Shown here: positions 1 to 6,000 of the stretch, in pieces
How positions within the stretch are numbered: position 1 is the stretch's first letter
Layout of the letters: each line of letters starts with the position of its first letter
Source of the DNA: Porticoccus sp. W117
Lineage (GTDB): Bacteria > Pseudomonadota > Gammaproteobacteria > Pseudomonadales > Porticoccaceae
Assembly (NCBI RefSeq): GCF_030341905.1
Contig: NZ_JATAAF010000007.1
Coordinates: forward strand, 1 to 64,000
DNA: 64,000 bases
Direction of reading: 5' to 3'
Made by a program: the position numbers and the translations under genes
Notes under the pieces: model-generated
Database searches by the model: none
What the model was told of the DNA's origin: nothing
Seen by the model: only the letters and a program-made list of their open reading frames with translations

Positions 1-117
1 GGGCTAGACATTGTCTGCACCAAGTCGGCATCGAGCTGCCACGCTGAAAGCCTGGTGCGCAGGCTTGGGCCTCACCTTATCGCTTGAGAATCAATAACGA
101 AATAATGGAATTTCAAT
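1..117 (+). other. 3' part of an upstream integron cassette
   Basis: This stretch precedes the first attC site and should be the tail of a cassette that begins outside the window. The frame starting at base 1 is open until a TGA at 85-87, so a short C-terminal coding fragment is possible. It resembles no protein I recognise. Confidence 0.3.
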
Positions 118-214
118 CATACAAGTTGCTCAAGTTTACTCCGGCTGCAAAAAACGCAGCCTCCGCGGGACAGCCAAACCGTTGGTTTGTCTGCCCCTTA
201 TCAGGGCGTTACAT
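118..214 (+). other. attC recombination site 1
   Basis: A long imperfect palindromic segment ending in the R' core GTTACAT (208-214). Its ends (AGTTGCTCAAGT near the left, CCCCTTA near the right) are nearly the same as those of the attC at 3395-3484, so the two belong to one attC subfamily. The R'' side reads ATACAAG instead of the usual RYYYAAC-type core and is slightly degenerate. As is normal for attC, it lies directly upstream of the next cassette gene. Confidence 0.7.
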
Positions 215-232
215 TTTTATATCGGAGTAAAG

Positions 233-649
233 ATGAAAAATATTATATTAATAATCTCGGTCTTATTGTTCGCTAACAATGCGACAGGATATGAAGGTAA
301 TCCGACAAGTCAGGTAGATCAGTTTTTCTCAGAGATTTCTGCAGGAAAAGCCGATCAGGCAATCGATAATCTATATTCAAACAACCCAACCATGCAGCAG
401 AAAATTCAAGCTCTTACTGTCTTAAAACAGCAAATCAATTCTCTGGGTGCTTTCTACGGTAATTATCTGGGTTTTGAAAAGGTTTCGTATGAAGAGATTT
501 CACCATCCGTTGTTCGTATGGTTACGGTTGCTAAATATGAAGTTCATCCTATTGTTTGGGAGTTCTATTTTTACAAACCAAAAAATACTTGGATAATTAG
601 CCAGGCAATGTTTGTAGATCAGTTTCAAGTTTTAGGTGCAAAAAAATAA
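233..649 (+). CDS. Secreted protein of unknown function (integron cassette gene)
   Basis: A 138-residue protein with an N-terminal signal peptide (MKNIILIISVLLF, then a likely cleavage near NATG-YEG). The mature part is a compact alpha/beta domain that loosely recalls DUF4019 or NTF2-like periplasmic proteins, but I do not recognise it with certainty. I placed the start at 233 because GGAG lies 5-9 bases upstream. An upstream in-frame TTG at 182 lies inside the attC and would add a non-signal extension. The gene is AT-rich compared with the chromosome, sits between two attC sites and fills its cassette, which is the standard one-gene layout. Confidence 0.75.
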   Translation: MKNIILIISVLLFANNATGYEGNPTSQVDQFFSEISAGKADQAIDNLYSNNPTMQQKIQALTVLKQQINSLGAFYGNYLGFEKVSYEEISPSVVRMVTVAKYEVHPIVWEFYFYKPKNTWIISQAMFVDQFQVLGAKK

Positions 650-650
650 A

Positions 651-720
651 TGTAACAAAGCGAAGCAACCGATTTATTTAAGGTTGCACCTTAAATAAAC
701 GGCTGTTCGCGGCGTTATGT
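651..720 (+). other. attC recombination site 2
   Basis: Starts with a TGTAACAAAG R''-type core and ends in GGCG-TTATGT (R' GTTATGT at 714-720). The middle (ATTTATTTAAGG / CCTTAAATAAA) forms a strong palindrome, as expected for the folded single-strand substrate of an integron integrase. It marks the 3' end of the cassette carrying the 233-649 gene. Confidence 0.8.
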
Positions 721-732
721 GTAGGCGGGATA

Positions 733-1077
733 ATGTCTAGTTCGAAGAAATATTTAGCAGTATTTCTGCTTAGCTTTCTAGGTTCTGGCATATTGGAGGC
801 AATTTATCCAAGTGTTCAAGATGCTATATCTTTGGCTCATGCACTGATAATTGCGTTTCTTATGTTTGGTTGGTGTGTGTTGCATGCGTCTGAGCATAGT
901 ATTTCCCCTCCATCTGGCGCAAAAATTCTTTGTGCTTTTTTACCGCCAATTGGTGTTCCATATTATTTATACAAAAGTTTTGGCTTTAAAAACGGTAGCA
1001 CCAAACTTGCGTTGGGGTTTTTATTTTTGGTTTGTTCATTTTTGGTTTATATGGCTCCCTTTTATGCTATTAGCTAG
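733..1077 (+). CDS. Small multi-spanning membrane protein (integron cassette gene)
   Basis: A 114-residue hydrophobic protein with about four likely membrane segments (near residues 6-22, 32-50, 66-82 and 92-112) and few charged residues. I do not recognise a family and no catalytic motif is visible. The start at 733 follows an AGGCGGG Shine-Dalgarno sequence 5-12 bases upstream and 12 bases after the attC R' core, so the cassette has almost no 5' untranslated space. Codon use is AT-rich, as in the other cassettes. An overlapping open frame (851-1150) runs through the next attC and is a shadow. Confidence 0.75.
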   Translation: MSSSKKYLAVFLLSFLGSGILEAIYPSVQDAISLAHALIIAFLMFGWCVLHASEHSISPPSGAKILCAFLPPIGVPYYLYKSFGFKNGSTKLALGFLFLVCSFLVYMAPFYAIS

Positions 1078-1083
1078 TCTCAC

Positions 1084-1143
1084 ACATAACCAGGCAAAGC
1101 ACATGGACGCCGCTCCGCGTCGCCCATGTTTGCGGCGTTATGT
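1084..1143 (+). other. attC recombination site 3
   Basis: Short attC of about 60 bp: R'' side ATAACCAGGC, R' GTTATGT at 1137-1143. The inner arms ATGGACGCCG and CGTCGCCCAT pair to form the bulged hairpin typical of attC. The ends (CATAACCAG...GCGGCGTTATGT) match the consensus well. Confidence 0.85.
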
Positions 1144-1154
1144 TTACTAAAAAT

Positions 1155-1487
1155 ATGAATTTCATATGTCCAGTTTGCGGTTGGGATGGACTAGAGCTCG
1201 ACCCTTCATATCCCAGCCATGAAATATGTAGCTGTTGCTCGTTTGAGTTTGGGTACGATGATGTTCCGGAAGAAAGAACTATTAATGTTCGAGTAGTTTC
1301 ACAAGAAGGCGAAGTTTCCGGTGAATCGCAGGCCAGTAATTCATCTCCTTATACTACTAAGGAGGGGATGTATGAGTGGCATAGAAACTTTTGGATATCA
1401 CATGGAATGAAGTGGTTTGATGGAAATCCTCCATCTAATTGGAATCCGCATGAACAATTAAGAAGGGTAAGTGTAAGTGAAACATAA
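1155..1487 (+). CDS. Zinc-ribbon CPxC/CxCC protein of unknown function (integron cassette gene)
   Basis: A 110-residue soluble protein. The N-terminus has two cysteine pairs, CPVCGWDG (about residues 5-12) and EICSCCSFEFGYDD (about 23-36), which look like a zinc-binding ribbon and resemble the Pfam 'cysteine-rich CPCC' family. The rest is acidic and carries aromatic residues (YEWHRNFWISHGMKWFDG). The start is uncertain: ATG 1140 lies inside the attC R' core, while ATG 1155 gives MNFICPVCG, which looks like the usual start of such proteins; neither has a good Shine-Dalgarno sequence. The function is unknown. Proteins with this zinc-ribbon appearance often occur in accessory DNA. Confidence 0.65.
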   Translation: MNFICPVCGWDGLELDPSYPSHEICSCCSFEFGYDDVPEERTINVRVVSQEGEVSGESQASNSSPYTTKEGMYEWHRNFWISHGMKWFDGNPPSNWNPHEQLRRVSVSET

Positions 1488-1561
1488 CCAGGTGCAGCAC
1501 AGCGCGGCTGCGCCGCTCGGACAGCCAAAGCGCTGCTTTGCCTGCCCGTGTGCACGGCGTT
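1483..1561 (+). other. attC recombination site 4, split by an insertion sequence
   Basis: The attC runs from CATAACCAGGTGCAGCAC through paired arms (GCGGCTGCGCCGC and others) to GTGTGCACGGCGTT at 1561, where it stops abruptly at the IS end. The bases after the IS (3111) are ATGTCTATG. Joining the two sides gives the R' core GTTATGT, identical to attC 2 and attC 3, which shows an insertion precisely between GTT and ATGT with no target duplication. Confidence 0.8.
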
Positions 1562-1860
1562 GATATGACCCCGAATGTCAAATAGAACGTAGTTGTCCCT
1601 GCCTGTTTTTTCAAAGCCCTGTTTTACTTTCGATTAAGTGAGTCGATGCACTGAATGAAGCAAGTACTGTCGTCGGTTTACATGCTGATATTCGTGGGTT
1701 GCTGATCGTTTGATCAACCTGTCCAACCTTACTTTTTCCGTCGTGGTGCCTGTCTTCAGTCTATGCTCGTGGATCAATGAACAGAGTTCACTGCCTTCCT
1801 AACGCCGTCGGTGGTTGCACCACACCCGTTGCTTGATCCAATGCATCAACTCTAACCAAA
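1562..1860 (-). ncRNA. Candidate bridge RNA region at the 3' end of the IS1111-type element
   Basis: About 300 bases without an open frame lie between the transposase stop and the element end, transcribed with the gene. In IS1111-type elements the bridge RNA is encoded in this 3' end. Visible hairpins fit a structured RNA: GTGGT-TGC-ACCAC at 1811-1823 and GGTTGctGATC...GATCAACC at 1698-1720. I cannot assign the target-binding and donor-binding loops by eye, so the exact RNA ends are unknown. Family knowledge plus position is the basis. Confidence 0.5.
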
Positions 1861-3015
1861 TCATGATGGCACCCTGGCCAACCGGGTTTTCGGGTCGACT
1901 TTGCTCAGCACCACTTCCTGGGATATTCGCCAGATAAAGGCGATCATCTCTCGCGCAATGGCAGCGATCACCAGATTGCGATGTTTACCTCGCTGCATTA
2001 ACCGGCGATAACGCCGACACAGCCGCATCTGCGCTTGCCAGGCAATATCGATAATTTCCTTGCTTAACCCTTCCTGACGCTTCTGCATATCGGTAGAGAT
2101 GTTGGCCGTGTACCGATAGCTGTGAGCGCCTTCCGTGAGTAACCGCCTTGCTCTGCAATTACCGGCCTTGGTGATTGCCCCCAGGTGTCGTCGTCCACCG
2201 CTGGAATGTTCACTGGGTGTTAGCCCCACATAACTCATCAACTTCCTGGGGTGGTCGAAACGGGTTAAATCCCCCAGTTCGGCAATTACTCCGGCGGCGA
2301 CTAAAAGGCGAACACCGCGCATGGCCTGTATGGCTTTCACTACCGGGTAATAACGCCATAATTTGATCTGGTGGGCGAGTTCATTATCCAGCCGCTTGAG
2401 GCGGGCAATGCGTTCAGTGATCGTTTGAATCATCTCCTGCAGCACGATTTGTTGGCACTGGTGGGGAAGAATCAGCTCGGTGAGCCAGCGCAAATGTTTC
2501 ATGGACCAGTTGGCTCGCCCGTCATAGTGAATATTATTGCGCAGCAGCAACGCCTTTAACTGATAGCGAGCGTCATTCAGATCCTTCATGGCGCGCTCAC
2601 GAGCACGGGATAAATCCCGTATGGCTTCGTCTTCTGGTTCGGGCACATAGATGGGGTTGATATCGTGATTCTTCAAAAGCTGCGTCAACAAAGCGGCATC
2701 GCGTTTGTCGGTTTTAACCCGGTCGCCCGGTTTGCGAGGAATTAGCGACGGGGCGACGATGTAACAGCAGTGGCCGAGCTGACTCAACAAGCGATATACC
2801 CAATAGCCGCATGGGCCTGCTTCGTAGACAAAATGCAGAGTGGCTTTTGGGTATTTGGATTGCAGCTGTCGGCAGAGTTTTGAGATGGCGAGTTTGGTGG
2901 TTTTGATACGTCTCAGGTGCTGGACAGGAGAGCGTCGGTTGTTGAGGGAGTAGGCGATTTCGGTGAACTCTTTGTGCGTGTCTAGGCCGACAAAGATTAT
3001 GCTATGGTTGCTCAT
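1861..3015 (-). CDS. IS110-family transposase (DEDD type)
   Basis: A 384-residue transposase, full length for the family. The RuvC-like N-terminal domain shows the DEDD tetrad: D12 (VGLDTHKE), E65 (YEAGPCGYWVY), D103 and D106 (KTDKRDAALL). The C-terminal Transposase_20 domain carries GLTPSEHSSGGRRHLGAITK (about 264-283), where the catalytic serine of IS110 recombinases is expected (S271 or S272). The middle is a coiled-coil-like helix. The start at 3015 has GGAGG six bases upstream. In IS110 elements this enzyme works with an element-encoded bridge RNA to choose target and donor. Confidence 0.93.
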   Translation of the reverse strand: MSNHSIIFVGLDTHKEFTEIAYSLNNRRSPVQHLRRIKTTKLAISKLCRQLQSKYPKATLHFVYEAGPCGYWVYRLLSQLGHCCYIVAPSLIPRKPGDRVKTDKRDAALLTQLLKNHDINPIYVPEPEDEAIRDLSRARERAMKDLNDARYQLKALLLRNNIHYDGRANWSMKHLRWLTELILPHQCQQIVLQEMIQTITERIARLKRLDNELAHQIKLWRYYPVVKAIQAMRGVRLLVAAGVIAELGDLTRFDHPRKLMSYVGLTPSEHSSGGRRHLGAITKAGNCRARRLLTEGAHSYRYTANISTDMQKRQEGLSKEIIDIAWQAQMRLCRRYRRLMQRGKHRNLVIAAIAREMIAFIWRISQEVVLSKVDPKTRLARVPS

Positions 3016-3110
3016 GGCTAGCCTCCGATTGTATGGATGAGTACATACAGTATGGCTCTGGCTTTACGCTAACCCACGACCCGCGGAGGCTAGCCACCTT
3101 CGGGGTCATA

Positions 3111-3394
3111 ATGTCTATGTGCCTTTAAGGCTTTTGTCATAAAAATAGAAAAGCTGTTGCACAAGATTCAGGATTTTGGTTTGTGCCAAGAAATACCAAA
3201 ACATCACGGTTTGGCACCGAGGCAACGTGGCCCCAAAAGTAGGTAAAGTCAGTATTGTTAAATTCGGGGTGTTCGTTCTTCGTGGCACCGTTCAAAGGTA
3301 GGGCAGGGAGCAGTTTTGGTCGTTCACATCAAAAAGCAGGGTTTTGCCTTAACTGATAGTTTTGGTGTACTGGGCTACAACGTGCCAAGTCTGG
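3111..3394 (+). other. Integron cassette without a recognisable gene
   Basis: Between the IS end and the next attC there are about 285 bases with stops in all frames and no open frame longer than about 40 codons. The segment contains GGTTTGTGCCAAG (3178-3190) and GGTTTGGCACC (3209-3219), and GTGCCAAGTCTGGCAC (3381-3396), repeated variants of a 'TTGGCAC' motif in both orientations that could fold. Cassettes without a gene are known in large arrays and sometimes carry promoters or small RNAs. Nothing here proves either. Confidence 0.5.
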
Positions 3395-3484
3395 CACATA
3401 ACCAGTTGCTCAAGTGCACTCCGGGCCTACGGCCCTCCGCGGGACGTCGCACTGCGTGCGCCGCCCCTTAGCAAGGCGTTAACA
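3395..3484 (+). other. attC recombination site 5
   Basis: Long attC: R'' side ATAACCAG (3398-3405), R' GTTAACA (3478-3484). Inner arms GGGCCTACGGCCC and GTCGCACTGCGTGCGCC form hairpins. The terminal parts (AGTTGCTCAAGTGCACTCCGG and CCCCTTAGCAAGGCGTTA) match attC 1, so these two cassettes probably acquired their sites from a common source. Confidence 0.8.
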
Positions 3485-3496
3485 GCAGGGTACATA

Positions 3497-3793
3497 ATGA
3501 AGGACTATGAACTAGCTCAAAAGCTTCTCTTGCAGAGAGAAAAAGGTATACGAATTTCTGACTCACTATCTGCGATGAAAGGCAAGTTGACATTTAGGCT
3601 TATATTTTCATCTATTGCGGTATTTCTCTACTGGGTTAGCGAGGCTGGTCTGTTTCTTCTTGCTCTAGGTTGTTTTATAGGAGCAACGGCTCAGGAAATT
3701 GGGTTATTAAAGGCAATAGCAAAATCATGGCCATTTACCGAAAAAATCATCAATTGGCGTGAAGTTGAAAATATCTCTAAAGATCGCAGTTAA
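3497..3793 (+). CDS. Small membrane protein with cytoplasmic helices (integron cassette gene)
   Basis: A 98-residue protein. The N-terminal 33 residues are charged (MKDYELAQKLLLQREKGIR), followed by two hydrophobic segments (about 34-48 and 51-68) and a basic-aromatic tail. I do not recognise the family. I chose ATG 3497 because AGCAGGG precedes it by 6-12 bases; a longer upstream frame from 3362 runs through the attC and can be excluded. The gene fills its cassette, and its stop at 3793 lies inside the next attC, as often seen in compact cassettes. Confidence 0.72.
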   Translation: MKDYELAQKLLLQREKGIRISDSLSAMKGKLTFRLIFSSIAVFLYWVSEAGLFLLALGCFIGATAQEIGLLKAIAKSWPFTEKIINWREVENISKDRS

Positions 3794-3863
3794 CAAAGTG
3801 CAGCACTCTGCAGCTTCGCAGCTTGGACGCCGGCAAGCTGCGCCCATGTGCGCGACGTTGGTT
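3790..3863 (+). other. attC recombination site 6
   Basis: R'' side AGTTAACAAAGTGCAGCAC, R' GTTGGTT at 3857-3863. Inner arms GCAGCTTCGCAGCTTGG and CCGGCAAGCTGCGCC pair with one another. It overlaps the stop codon region of the preceding gene. Confidence 0.78.
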
Positions 3864-3882
3864 TGATATGAAGGATATGCGA

Positions 3883-4149
3883 ATGATTAGAACTGAGTTG
3901 TCGAGAGGCTTAATCTCTGTTGCAGAGGCTCAACGTTTAGTTCGTGTCTATTTGAACTCCCAAGAGTACGAGGCTGATGCTCCTCTTGAATCCAATAGAA
4001 TCGAGTGGGAAATTAATGCCTTAGATAATGAGTTTGAGAAGCTGATCTTCTCTTTGAGGCCAGAAAATCAAGTTCCTGAGGCTTTGCGAGTTATTGAAAA
4101 AGTGTCCAAGTTCTTAGAGGAAGAAAGTGCTTCACGTAAAAACAGTTAA
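3883..4149 (+). CDS. Small acidic protein of unknown function (integron cassette gene)
   Basis: An 88-residue soluble protein, rich in Glu and helix-forming residues (RGLISVAEAQRLVRVYLNSQ near residues 8-27). It may be a small all-helical protein, and no family is recognised. Three in-frame ATGs exist: 3868, 3877 and 3883. AAGGA at 3871-3875 is properly spaced only for 3883, so I chose it; 3868 would add five residues. Its stop lies at the beginning of the next attC. Confidence 0.65.
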   Translation: MIRTELSRGLISVAEAQRLVRVYLNSQEYEADAPLESNRIEWEINALDNEFEKLIFSLRPENQVPEALRVIEKVSKFLEEESASRKNS

Positions 4150-4216
4150 CAAGATGTAGTGCACCGCGGCTGCGCCGCTTGGGCGCCCAAGCGGCGTCCA
4201 TGTGCACGGATTCATA
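4143..4216 (+). other. Degenerate attC site 7
   Basis: The left half is a normal attC start (AGTTAACAAGATGTAGTGCAC) and the inner arms (CGCGGCTGCGCCGC, GGGCGCCCAAGCGGCG) pair well. The R' core is mutated: where GGCGTTRRRY is expected the sequence reads GGATTCATA (4208-4216), so the conserved G of GTT is lost. It has probably lost recombination activity on this side. Confidence 0.6.
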
Positions 4217-4227
4217 TGGAGTGTGGT

Positions 4228-4647
4228 ATGAAATATAAAAATTCGAAGGTATTGATATCGGCCTTGTATTTCGGAATAGCCTTCTTTCCACTCATGTCTA
4301 TTGCTAGCGGATACTGGGCGTACAGTGAGTATACGGCGGGAATAGGCGGAAATTTTTTTATTTTCGTTATCGGCTCTTTGTTTTTTGGCTATCTCAGTTA
4401 CCTTGGCTTCAAATTATTAAAGTACTTGCACCATGAATACACTCTTACAGATGAGGCTATAGAAATTTCAGCCGGAAAAAGAGTAGAGGTGCACAAATGG
4501 TCCTCAGGGATGAGGGTTAAAGAATCACATGCTTTGCAATTGTTTTGGCTATACTCGGCTGATAACAGGGTCATAGTTATGGTTGACTACATGATGCCAG
4601 GTTATAAAGAATTTAGTTCATTTATTGCTTTAAAGGTAAAAGCTTAG
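4228..4647 (+). CDS. Membrane protein with two spans and a C-terminal beta domain (integron cassette gene)
   Basis: A 139-residue protein with two membrane segments near residues 8-28 and 40-66, then a soluble C-terminal domain (EYTLTDEAIEISAGKRVE...), a pattern like small bacterial-PH (YdbT/YcxB-type) proteins, though I cannot confirm that. Two ATGs compete: 4216 and 4228. GGAG at 4218-4221 is correctly spaced for 4228, so I prefer it. It sits in the cassette bounded by two degenerate attC sites, so it may be fixed in place. Confidence 0.72.
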   Translation: MKYKNSKVLISALYFGIAFFPLMSIASGYWAYSEYTAGIGGNFFIFVIGSLFFGYLSYLGFKLLKYLHHEYTLTDEAIEISAGKRVEVHKWSSGMRVKESHALQLFWLYSADNRVIVMVDYMMPGYKEFSSFIALKVKA

Positions 4648-4693
4648 CAAGAGTGGGCTGACTGCCGCCGCGTCAGCTGCCTTGGGCCTTAAA
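4643..4693 (+). other. Degenerate attC site 8
   Basis: R'' side CTTAGCAAG (4643-4651) and paired arms GGCTGAC/GTCAGCT (4658-4678), but the R' position reads GCCTTAAAT instead of GCGTTAAAT, with C in place of the conserved G of GTT. The right end overlaps the ccdB stop codon (4689-4691), so the toxin gene of the next cassette runs right up to this boundary. Confidence 0.5.
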
Positions 4694-5006
4694 TGCCCGA
4701 AATAGCAAAATCCAATGAATTGATAATTTCCGATCTGATATGTGCAAGTGATCCTATTTGATTCTTTAAAATGGAAGCTGGTACAGAAGAAATTTGAGGG
4801 GTTAAAAGTAGTAACTCTTCATCAAGATAACTAATTGTTGGTGTAAGTTTATCCATCTCTTCATTTCGGAACGAAGATTTTAAGCCAAGTGGTATTACTA
4901 TCCTTGTTGATAGATCTTCGAGAAAATTATTCTGTACATCAAGCAGGTAAGGCAGGTGTTTTTTACTTGTTTTGCTTGGGTTTTTGTAAACATCAAACTG
5001 GCTCAT
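4689..5006 (-). CDS. ccdB: CcdB-like toxin of a type II toxin-antitoxin pair (integron cassette)
   Basis: A 105-residue protein close to the usual 101 of F-plasmid CcdB, a gyrase poison. It begins MSQFDVYKN and has the family pattern YLLDVQNNFLEDLSTRIVIP (near 20-39) and the central SVPASIL segment. The C-terminus ends FAISGI where classical CcdB ends in WGI; the tryptophan that contacts GyrA is replaced by serine, so gyrase toxicity is not certain. The gene lies antisense to the cassette direction, as is common for cassette toxin-antitoxin pairs, and its ATG overlaps the ccdA stop by one base (TAATG), indicating translational coupling. Confidence 0.9.
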   Translation of the reverse strand: MSQFDVYKNPSKTSKKHLPYLLDVQNNFLEDLSTRIVIPLGLKSSFRNEEMDKLTPTISYLDEELLLLTPQISSVPASILKNQIGSLAHIRSEIINSLDFAISGI

Positions 5007-5251
5007 TAAAACGTCCTGAATTCGTCACTGAACAATCCGTTTTCTTCAACAAACTCATTGTATGCCCGAATGGCATTAGCGTTTTGCTGTTTCCAGGATT
5101 CGGCTTCTTTTTCAGCTAACTTGGCTCTCAGTGCTTGTTCTAGAGTGGCTGAAAGATTAATGTTGAGCAAGCGAGACTTTGCTAGTAAGTCACTGTTTAT
5201 GCTGAGATTTGTAGGCTTTTTGGGGGCGTTTAAATCGTACAATGTTTGCAT
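5006..5251 (-). CDS. ccdA: CcdA-like antitoxin (integron cassette)
   Basis: An 81-residue antitoxin. The N-terminal half (KKPTNLSINSDLLAKSRLLN) matches the ribbon-helix-helix DNA-binding domain of CcdA. The C-terminal half (LEQALRAKLAEKEAESWKQQ and NEFVEENGLFSDEFRTF) matches the flexible toxin-binding tail, including the NGLFSDEFR motif. I started at the internal Met (MQTLYDLNAPKKP); an upstream Met at 5281 would add ten residues not typical of the family. In this family the antitoxin neutralises CcdB and represses its own promoter. The module brings its own promoter, independent of the array promoter, and its general role in arrays is thought to be stabilisation. Confidence 0.9.
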   Translation of the reverse strand: MQTLYDLNAPKKPTNLSINSDLLAKSRLLNINLSATLEQALRAKLAEKEAESWKQQNANAIRAYNEFVEENGLFSDEFRTF

Positions 5252-5258
5252 GTGTAGT

Positions 5259-5290
5259 CTCGTGCGTATGTTAATGCGCATAGATTACAG
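5259..5290 (-). promoter_or_regulatory. Possible ccdAB promoter/operator region
   Basis: The bases just upstream of ccdA contain TGCGTATGTTAATGCGCATA with a perfect ATGCGCAT palindrome at 5274-5281. CcdA-type ribbon-helix-helix repressors bind short palindromes near their own start, so this is a reasonable operator candidate. No clear -35/-10 pair could be fixed by eye. Confidence 0.25.
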
Positions 5291-5298
5291 TAAGGCAT

Positions 5299-5358
5299 CT
5301 AACAAGACAAACAAGCTGGCAGCTTTTCCGTTGCTCGTTTTTGTGCTGTACGTTACGC
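5299..5358 (+). other. attC recombination site 9 (last attC of the visible array)
   Basis: R'' side CTAACAAG (5299-5306), R' GTTACGC (5352-5358), with a palindromic middle (AACAAGCTGGCAGC...GTTGCTCG). It closes the ccdAB cassette. No attC-like sequence was seen to the right of it, so it marks the right edge of the array or the start of a last cassette without its own attC. Confidence 0.72.
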
Positions 5359-5415
5359 TGGCGCAAAAATAACCACTCCAAAGCTGTTGTCTATCGCGGT
5401 GCCAGGAGACAAAAA

Positions 5416-6000
5416 TTGACCAACAGAATTTCAGAAATATCAGATTTCATGTTGCAGTTAGATGTCTTGAAGTCGGTGAATCGTCGCACCTACATCAATG
5501 GTGGTGAGAGAGTCGAAAACTCGGCAGAACATTCATGGCATTTAGCTATGGCTTGTTGGGCTTTCGCAGAGCTATTGCAAGATGATTACGACGTGCCGAA
5601 GCTCATTCAGTTGGCATTGATCCATGATCTCGGCGAAATCGGTGCTGGAGATACCTTTCTTTATAGCAGTCACAGAGACGATGCTCACATTCAGGAGCGT
5701 GAGAGTGTAAAGCAGATTGCTTCGCATTCGGGCAACCCAATTGGAAATATCGTTGAGCTTTGGGAAGAACAAGAAGCTGGTGAAAGCAAAGAAGCAAAAT
5801 TACTGAAAGTCATTGATCGCCTGTTGCCATTCCTTCACAACATTACTAGTGAAGGTCGTGCATGGCAGGACAACGGCATACACAAGAATCAAGTGTTAAA
5901 GATGCATCAGTTTATTGAAAATGAGAACCCGGAAATCTACGGGTGGTTTATTTCAAAACTAGAGCATGCTGTTGAGCAGGGTTGGCTGGATGCTTCCTGA
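5416..6000 (+). CDS. HD-domain phosphohydrolase (HDDC2/YfbR-like)
   Basis: A 194-residue soluble HD-superfamily hydrolase. Metal-binding residues are visible: H in NSAEHSWHLA, the HD pair in LALIHDLGEIGAGD and D in LLKVIDRLLPFLHN. Relatives are 5'-deoxynucleotidases, so a nucleotide substrate is likely. I chose TTG 5416 because AGGAG lies seven bases upstream and the resulting N-terminus (MTNRISEISDFMLQLDVLK) matches HDDC2-type proteins; the ATG at 5449 would remove the first conserved helix. It lies just after the last attC and has its own terminator, so it is either the first chromosomal gene or a terminal cassette. Confidence 0.85.
   Translation: MTNRISEISDFMLQLDVLKSVNRRTYINGGERVENSAEHSWHLAMACWAFAELLQDDYDVPKLIQLALIHDLGEIGAGDTFLYSSHRDDAHIQERESVKQIASHSGNPIGNIVELWEEQEAGESKEAKLLKVIDRLLPFLHNITSEGRAWQDNGIHKNQVLKMHQFIENENPEIYGWFISKLEHAVEQGWLDAS

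Follow-up and report, generated by a model that had tools for sequence, protein, structure and literature searches.

Guide RNAs aimed at integron attC sites are already known in kind, as is the mechanism, since seekRNAs acting at attC have been published: the accessible text of Siddiquee 2024 (PMC11187229) presents them as shown for ISKpn4 and ISPst6 and as predicted for ISPa25. A more distant point of comparison is the bridge RNA of IS621, which in the accessible parts of its two descriptions (Durrant 2024, PMC11208160; Hiraizumi 2024, PMC11208158) has a target and a donor loop, and in the target loop each strand carries a guide. The RNA that we describe here is predicted to share these features, but it lies downstream of the transposase gene (upstream in IS621), its element carries long subterminal repeats, and one of the donor guides was not found.

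The element is present as a single copy in the genome of Porticoccus sp. W117. All positions refer to the window, that is, the whole stretch of 64,000 nucleotides that was analysed. The element is of IS1111 type, lies on the minus strand and adjoins the 3' end of an attC site. Its parts and immediate surroundings are as follows:

1562–3116, minus strand: the whole insertion sequence, 1555 bp, with a 1-bp ambiguity (1561–3115) and a left end common to the window and 20 relatives
1861–3015, minus strand: gene of a DEDD transposase/recombinase of IS110 type, 384 aa (PF02371, E 2.3e-19; PF01548, E 1.1e-14)
1564–1575, no strand: right subterminal inverted repeat, TATGACCCCGAA on the plus strand, 12 bp, read in the sequence
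3099–3110, no strand: left subterminal inverted repeat, TTCGGGGTCATA on the plus strand, 12 bp, read in the sequence
1485–1561, plus strand: uninterrupted attC of the upstream cassette, found by a simple pattern and its fold, with the insertion directly after GGCGTT
3117–3123, plus strand: ATGTGCC, with which the next cassette begins and which supplies the second half of the target, read in the sequence and in the alignment

To place the ends we aligned the window with 20 relatives (protein identity about 63–79%, taken per segment where the protein was broken). The left end, before the inverted repeat, reads TAGACAT in 18 of the 20 relatives, TAAACAT in one (locus L006) and TAGACAC in another (L037), and the bases outside it are unrelated among the relatives (L010 offers one flanking base only); the stretch therefore belongs to the element. 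The 3'-CS of class 1 integrons without the element reads GTGCATCTAACGCC beside another cassette (L051) and GTGCATCTAACACC (L085), and the filled 3'-CS site in L036 reads GTGCATC-TAGACAT...ATACC-AACGCC. From these comparisons we infer that the empty site of the window was GGCGTT/ATGTGCC (the slash marks the insertion point), and that the element is 1562–3116. Insertion after GGCGTT involves one shared base and no duplication.

The preliminary description had proposed ATGTCTATG as an attC flank. This sequence is mostly IS end (ATGTCT), and the far attC flank is ATGTGCC; as a target boundary, ATGTCTATG is ruled out by the conserved left end in the relatives and by the 3'-CS, which is uninterrupted without it.

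In the close clade, 22 copies could be read, of which 19 have the right flank AACGCC, equivalent to insertion after GGCGTT; the 22 do not count as independent, a single strain having contributed three and one MAG two. The exceptions are AACGTC (L012), AACACC (L013) and AACTTT (L037). A loose pattern for the far attC end, too weak to count, was matched in 19 of the 22 copies. Three copies from one Pseudoalteromonas strain (L031, L032, and L060) share left or right flanks in differing combinations, as if recombined between copies.

Elements of the IS1111 family have subterminal inverted repeats of 7–17 bp, and the organisation of the present element is theirs: it has 12-bp subterminal repeats (1564–1575 and 3099–3110), a non-coding region of 299 bp downstream of the transposase gene against about 100 bp upstream, and, in the transposase, the sequence GLTPSEHSSG, which fits the IS1111 motif GL-P----S(t)G. 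The transposase itself, with 384 aa, exceeds the 330–350 aa that define the tight IS1111 clade, and in a midpoint-rooted tree of 26 transposases (9 of 23 inner branches open, some of the branches long, and IS1111 itself absent) a long branch (100/99) separates it from IS4321 and ISKpn4. The initial placement in IS1111 thus holds as far as the repeats, the downstream region and the motif are concerned, whereas the transposase falls outside the clade of ISKpn4, ISPa21 and IS4321. Each of the two attC groups is confined to one side of the tree (100/99), and the two lie apart; the ISKpn4 branch also holds IS4321 and a Cupriavidus element, and beside the present clade there are elements with other targets, where these could be read. 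Two independent arrivals at attC would be the simplest reading of this tree, not a proof. The sole named relatives among the best 60 plasmid matches were ISSso6-like elements (51% identity), and the E. coli genomes searched for the element gave no match.

The 299 bases between the transposase stop and the right end of the element (1562–1860) had been called non-coding, and we found this to be so, with no ORF of at least 80 aa listed there. On the minus strand, this region contains a predicted RNA with the following features:

1640–1852, minus strand: predicted bridge RNA or seekRNA precursor, covariance model R1, from fold, covariation and model search; the termini are predicted
1775–1793, minus strand: apical hairpin of the target loop (helix 7, two-sided changes in 6 of 8 pairs)
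1700–1719, minus strand: putative donor loop hairpin (helix 10, two-sided changes in 5 of 8 pairs)
1800–1808, minus strand: right target guide, ACGGCGTTA, complementary to the right flank (8 nt) and the core A
1762–1765, minus strand: left target guide, CATA, which matches the start of the next cassette and has moderate support only
1685–1691, minus strand: putative donor guide, ATATCAG, whose match to the right end of the IS (ATATCA) is consistent, not significant

On the minus strand, 1852–1640 folds at −69.8 kcal/mol with a z of −4.13, equalled by 0 of 200 shuffles; the plus strand of the same region has a z of −1.37, equalled by 19 of 200. For the consensus structure we aligned 14 of 21 loci, leaving out one that was cut off (L002), four with an insertion (L004, L005, L006, and L016) and two near-copies (L013 and L032). 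The consensus consists of a long outer stem, a target arm and a donor arm. In it, 96.5% of 826 cells are paired, against 87.0 in shuffles and 31.0–42.5 in slid versions, over which it has an advantage because it came from the same alignment as was tested. Two-sided changes with pairing kept are seen in 27 of the 59 pairs, and each of the five measures was equalled by 0 of 500 shuffles. Two hairpins had been named beforehand: the one at 1698–1720 proved real and covarying (helix 10, with the two-sided changes in 5 of 8 pairs given above), whereas at 1811–1823 an inverted repeat is present but the consensus pairs 1824–1817 with 1749–1742 (helix 4, two-sided changes in 3 of 8 pairs). In five Pseudoalteromonas loci (L004, L005, L006, L016, and L019), the donor arm contains, ahead of ATATCAG, a palindrome-bearing insertion of about 64 bases.

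Because no Rfam family matches, the covariance model R1 was built in this analysis: Rfam at its gathering threshold gave 0 matches over the window, and at E up to 10 on 1540–1870 it gave one irrelevant match, far under its own threshold. Offered 18 loci, R1 found the RNA at 14, namely a close copy (L021, 201 bits) and 13 others, which include several copies within one genome. The transposases at these 13 loci are 42–54% identical, their RNAs score 17–47 bits (E 1e-12 to 7e-4), and their targets, where read, are different ones. The search missed L070, L071, L076 and the masked L080, and it found no RNA at eight loci with transposases of ISKpn4, ISPa21, ISPa25, IS4321, ISEsa2 and Cupriavidus (L086) type. 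Expression of the region is a prediction, and one could regard it as simply a 3' UTR or terminal sequence that forms stable hairpins but guides nothing. We give this practically no credence: the covariation is strong, the loops are conserved, the RNA has been kept beside transposases of only 42–54% identity, and guides agree with flanks, as shown below.

In the target arm, ACGGCGTTA (1808–1800) is followed by the strongly covarying hairpin and then by CATAGAC (1765–1759), of which CATA alone is target, while GAC (1761–1759) runs into the IS end. ACGGCGTTA pairs with the strand reading TAACGCCGT at the attC end; the partner of CATA is the other strand, where the next cassette begins. This order of the two target matches is the one reported for IS1111 seekRNAs, in the part of that account accessible to us. 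A target loop complementary to attC had been expected, and both matches, ACGGCGTTA and CATA(GAC), were indeed found, one on either side of the insertion; with the conserved structure and the IS1111-type position of the RNA, the idea of an attC-directed bridge RNA put forward in the preliminary description was right in substance. When the region was shuffled 1000 times, 4 of the shuffles matched the right flank as well as the observed 8 nt. On the left side, the picture is mixed: L036, which sits before AGATGC, has ATCTA where most copies have CATA, and ATCTA fits its own target; TTCTA in L003 has no fit to its own flank, ACTTTA; and CATA is present in many copies whose next cassette starts differently.

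Single matches of 5–7 nt are not rare. Moreover, the close relatives share both the protein and GGCGTTA (GGTGTTA in L036 and L037), so within the clade guide and protein are inseparable. The RNA might thus be real and structural, with the protein picking the target and the GGCGTTA match an accident of a conserved loop. We consider this unlikely, because in relatives with other targets the matching bases changed along with the target, and because the mechanism published for IS1111 elements is, in the accessible sources, RNA-guided. As examples, the right guides AGATACT in Cupriavidus (L054), CCACGCT in Variovorax (L057), TCCCACT in Sinorhizobium (L058), ACGGGCT (L073), and CTGGGCT (L077) all match their own flanks. 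We obtained statistical support for this agreement by taking the longest perfect match between RNA region and flank complement and summing it over 10 elements with different right flanks. Left out were L022 (misfit of guide and flank), L056, L072, L079 and L081 (same or near copies), L080 (masked), and L070, L071 and L076 (no RNA found). The elements' own right flanks sum to 65, compared to a permuted mean of 50.3 (sd 2.8), and 1 of 200,000 permutations was as high. Without the window, 4 of 200,000 permutations were as good; with L022 added, 0 of 200,000; and with all 14 copies (L022, L072, L079, and L081 back), again 0 of 200,000. Taken alone, the right-flank match is reached by more than 20% of shuffles in four of the 10 elements (L053, L069, L074, and L082), and the target-loop guide misfits its flank in L022, which has a stop in the transposase, and in L072. 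The equivalent test for the left flank, run on the whole region, was not significant: with nine elements 6,349 of 100,000 permutations did as well, and with 11 elements 12,879 of 100,000. Limited to the loop segment picked by homology, it gave 45 of 100,000. The right-flank test was passed as such and the left one only in its loop-restricted form, and therefore the right guide is well supported and the left guide moderately.

Sites of the attC type work in recombination as a folded bottom strand. The insertion lies exactly at this recombination site, after GGCGTT in 19 of the 22 copies, which is what one would expect if the folded attC hairpin were recognised, as it is by integron integrases, and not a linear sequence such as GGCGTTATG. 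This seems to us even less probable than target choice by the protein: relatives with the same RNA architecture insert elsewhere, such as L053, which has another target and sits inside an apparent IS110-type transposase gene (flank read by eye), and their guides match linear sequence.

The donor side is less clear. All four copies that carry ATACCAG end in CATACC on the right, but so do ten that carry ATATCAG, as a G-U pair would allow. Since CATACC ends occur with both, the donor match is consistent but not significant: among the copies readable at both places (17 of 23), guide and right end (ATATC/ATACC) show no contradiction, for which a calculation by hand gives about 0.4, and the match could be chance. 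No second donor guide, for the left end of the element, was found in the RNA region. Joining the ends of the element yields TTGACA-17 bp-CATTAT in the window, and such a junction promoter (at least 5/6 and at least 4/6 bases, spacing 17) is found in 21 of 22 copies. This fits a remark, in the accessible text on ISEc11, that no promoter was seen except at the circle junction.

RNA structure, guide matches, right-half agreement between guide and target, insertion point and possible promoter together form the basis of our main reading, to which we assign a probability of roughly 0.88: a downstream bridge RNA that guides an IS110-type recombinase to the attC/cassette boundary. The downstream region would be transcribed into a bridge RNA (seekRNA) that binds the recombinase, and the element would be excised as a circle, whose joined ends would build a promoter that could drive transposase and RNA. 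The target loop would pair with both strands at the boundary, ACGGCGTTA with the TAACGCCGT strand and CATA with the opposite one; a second, donor loop (ATATCAG) may pair with the right end of the element; and the recombinase would then join circle and target at the shared A.

We compared this system with four copies of the known attC-directed type: an ISPa21-like element (L051), ISKpn4 (L083), ISPa25 (L084), and an IS110 element 78% identical to ISKpn4 (L085). They have in common with the present element an IS110/IS1111-type transposase antisense to the cassettes, subterminal inverted repeats, a downstream RNA, attC targeting, and the order of the two target matches. However, their transposases are 25–29% identical to the present one and form a separate clade, and R1 finds nothing at the four loci. 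In all four the insertion is close to the 5' end of attC, next to GAATTGTTAG or GACTTGTTAG, at a point that we take to be between the R'' and L'' boxes, whereas the present element sits at the 3' end, after GGCGTT. Insertion at attC, here at the attC/cassette boundary, is therefore shared with this group, and neither the insertion point nor a related transposase is. Judged from sequence, what appears to be new is the separate transposase clade, an RNA that the R1 model does not link to the known ones, the use of the opposite attC end (GGCGTT/A), and an upstream attC left uninterrupted. Our literature search, mainly of open-access texts in their accessible parts (including PMC9229058, PMC12444791, PMC11089894, and PMC11616780), came across no IS described at the 3' end of attC; PMC9229058, as far as its accessible text goes, states that its Shewanella set contained no IS interrupting attC. 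Accessions for the comparison were looked up in the accessible parts of PMC7232449, PMC7558541, PMC4129628, PMC10715227, and PMC11226647.

Around the element there is a cassette array. When 1–6000 was scanned with a simple pattern (TAAC followed by a GGCGTT-like end), 10 attC-like hits resulted, of which those taken as real end at 210, 716, 1139, 1561, 3480, and 3859 (approximate positions). A single integron integrase in the genome scores over the family cut-off (454 bits); it is encoded on a different contig, C12, and has attC-like hits next to it. Six cassette ORFs (233–4647) had no Pfam match at E 0.001. Adjoining the array on the minus strand is a CcdB/CcdA toxin-antitoxin pair (4689–5281; PF01845, E 2.4e-31; PF07362, E 2.1e-30). 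The L036 copy is carried by a Klebsiella IncC plasmid, where it occupies the junction of the arr-3 cassette and the 3'-CS in a class 1 integron.

A broader interpretation, which we offer tentatively and at less than even odds, is that a second lineage of RNA-guided IS has come to attC on its own and reads GGCGTT at the cassette boundary, the part of the site that varies least. With the insertion outside the attC hairpin, the upstream attC would stay whole and the IS would form the front of the next cassette, and the integrase could therefore still excise and pass on IS and cassette together. If true, this would be an RNA-guided element riding integrons without breaking them. A guide directed at the GGCGTT end, which is nearly constant, would be applicable to cassette boundaries in general. 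Natural guide change with target is seen in this lineage, which thereby supplies pairs ready for testing, and since it appears to have reached attC independently, one may ask whether integrons are a niche that RNA-guided transposons enter repeatedly.
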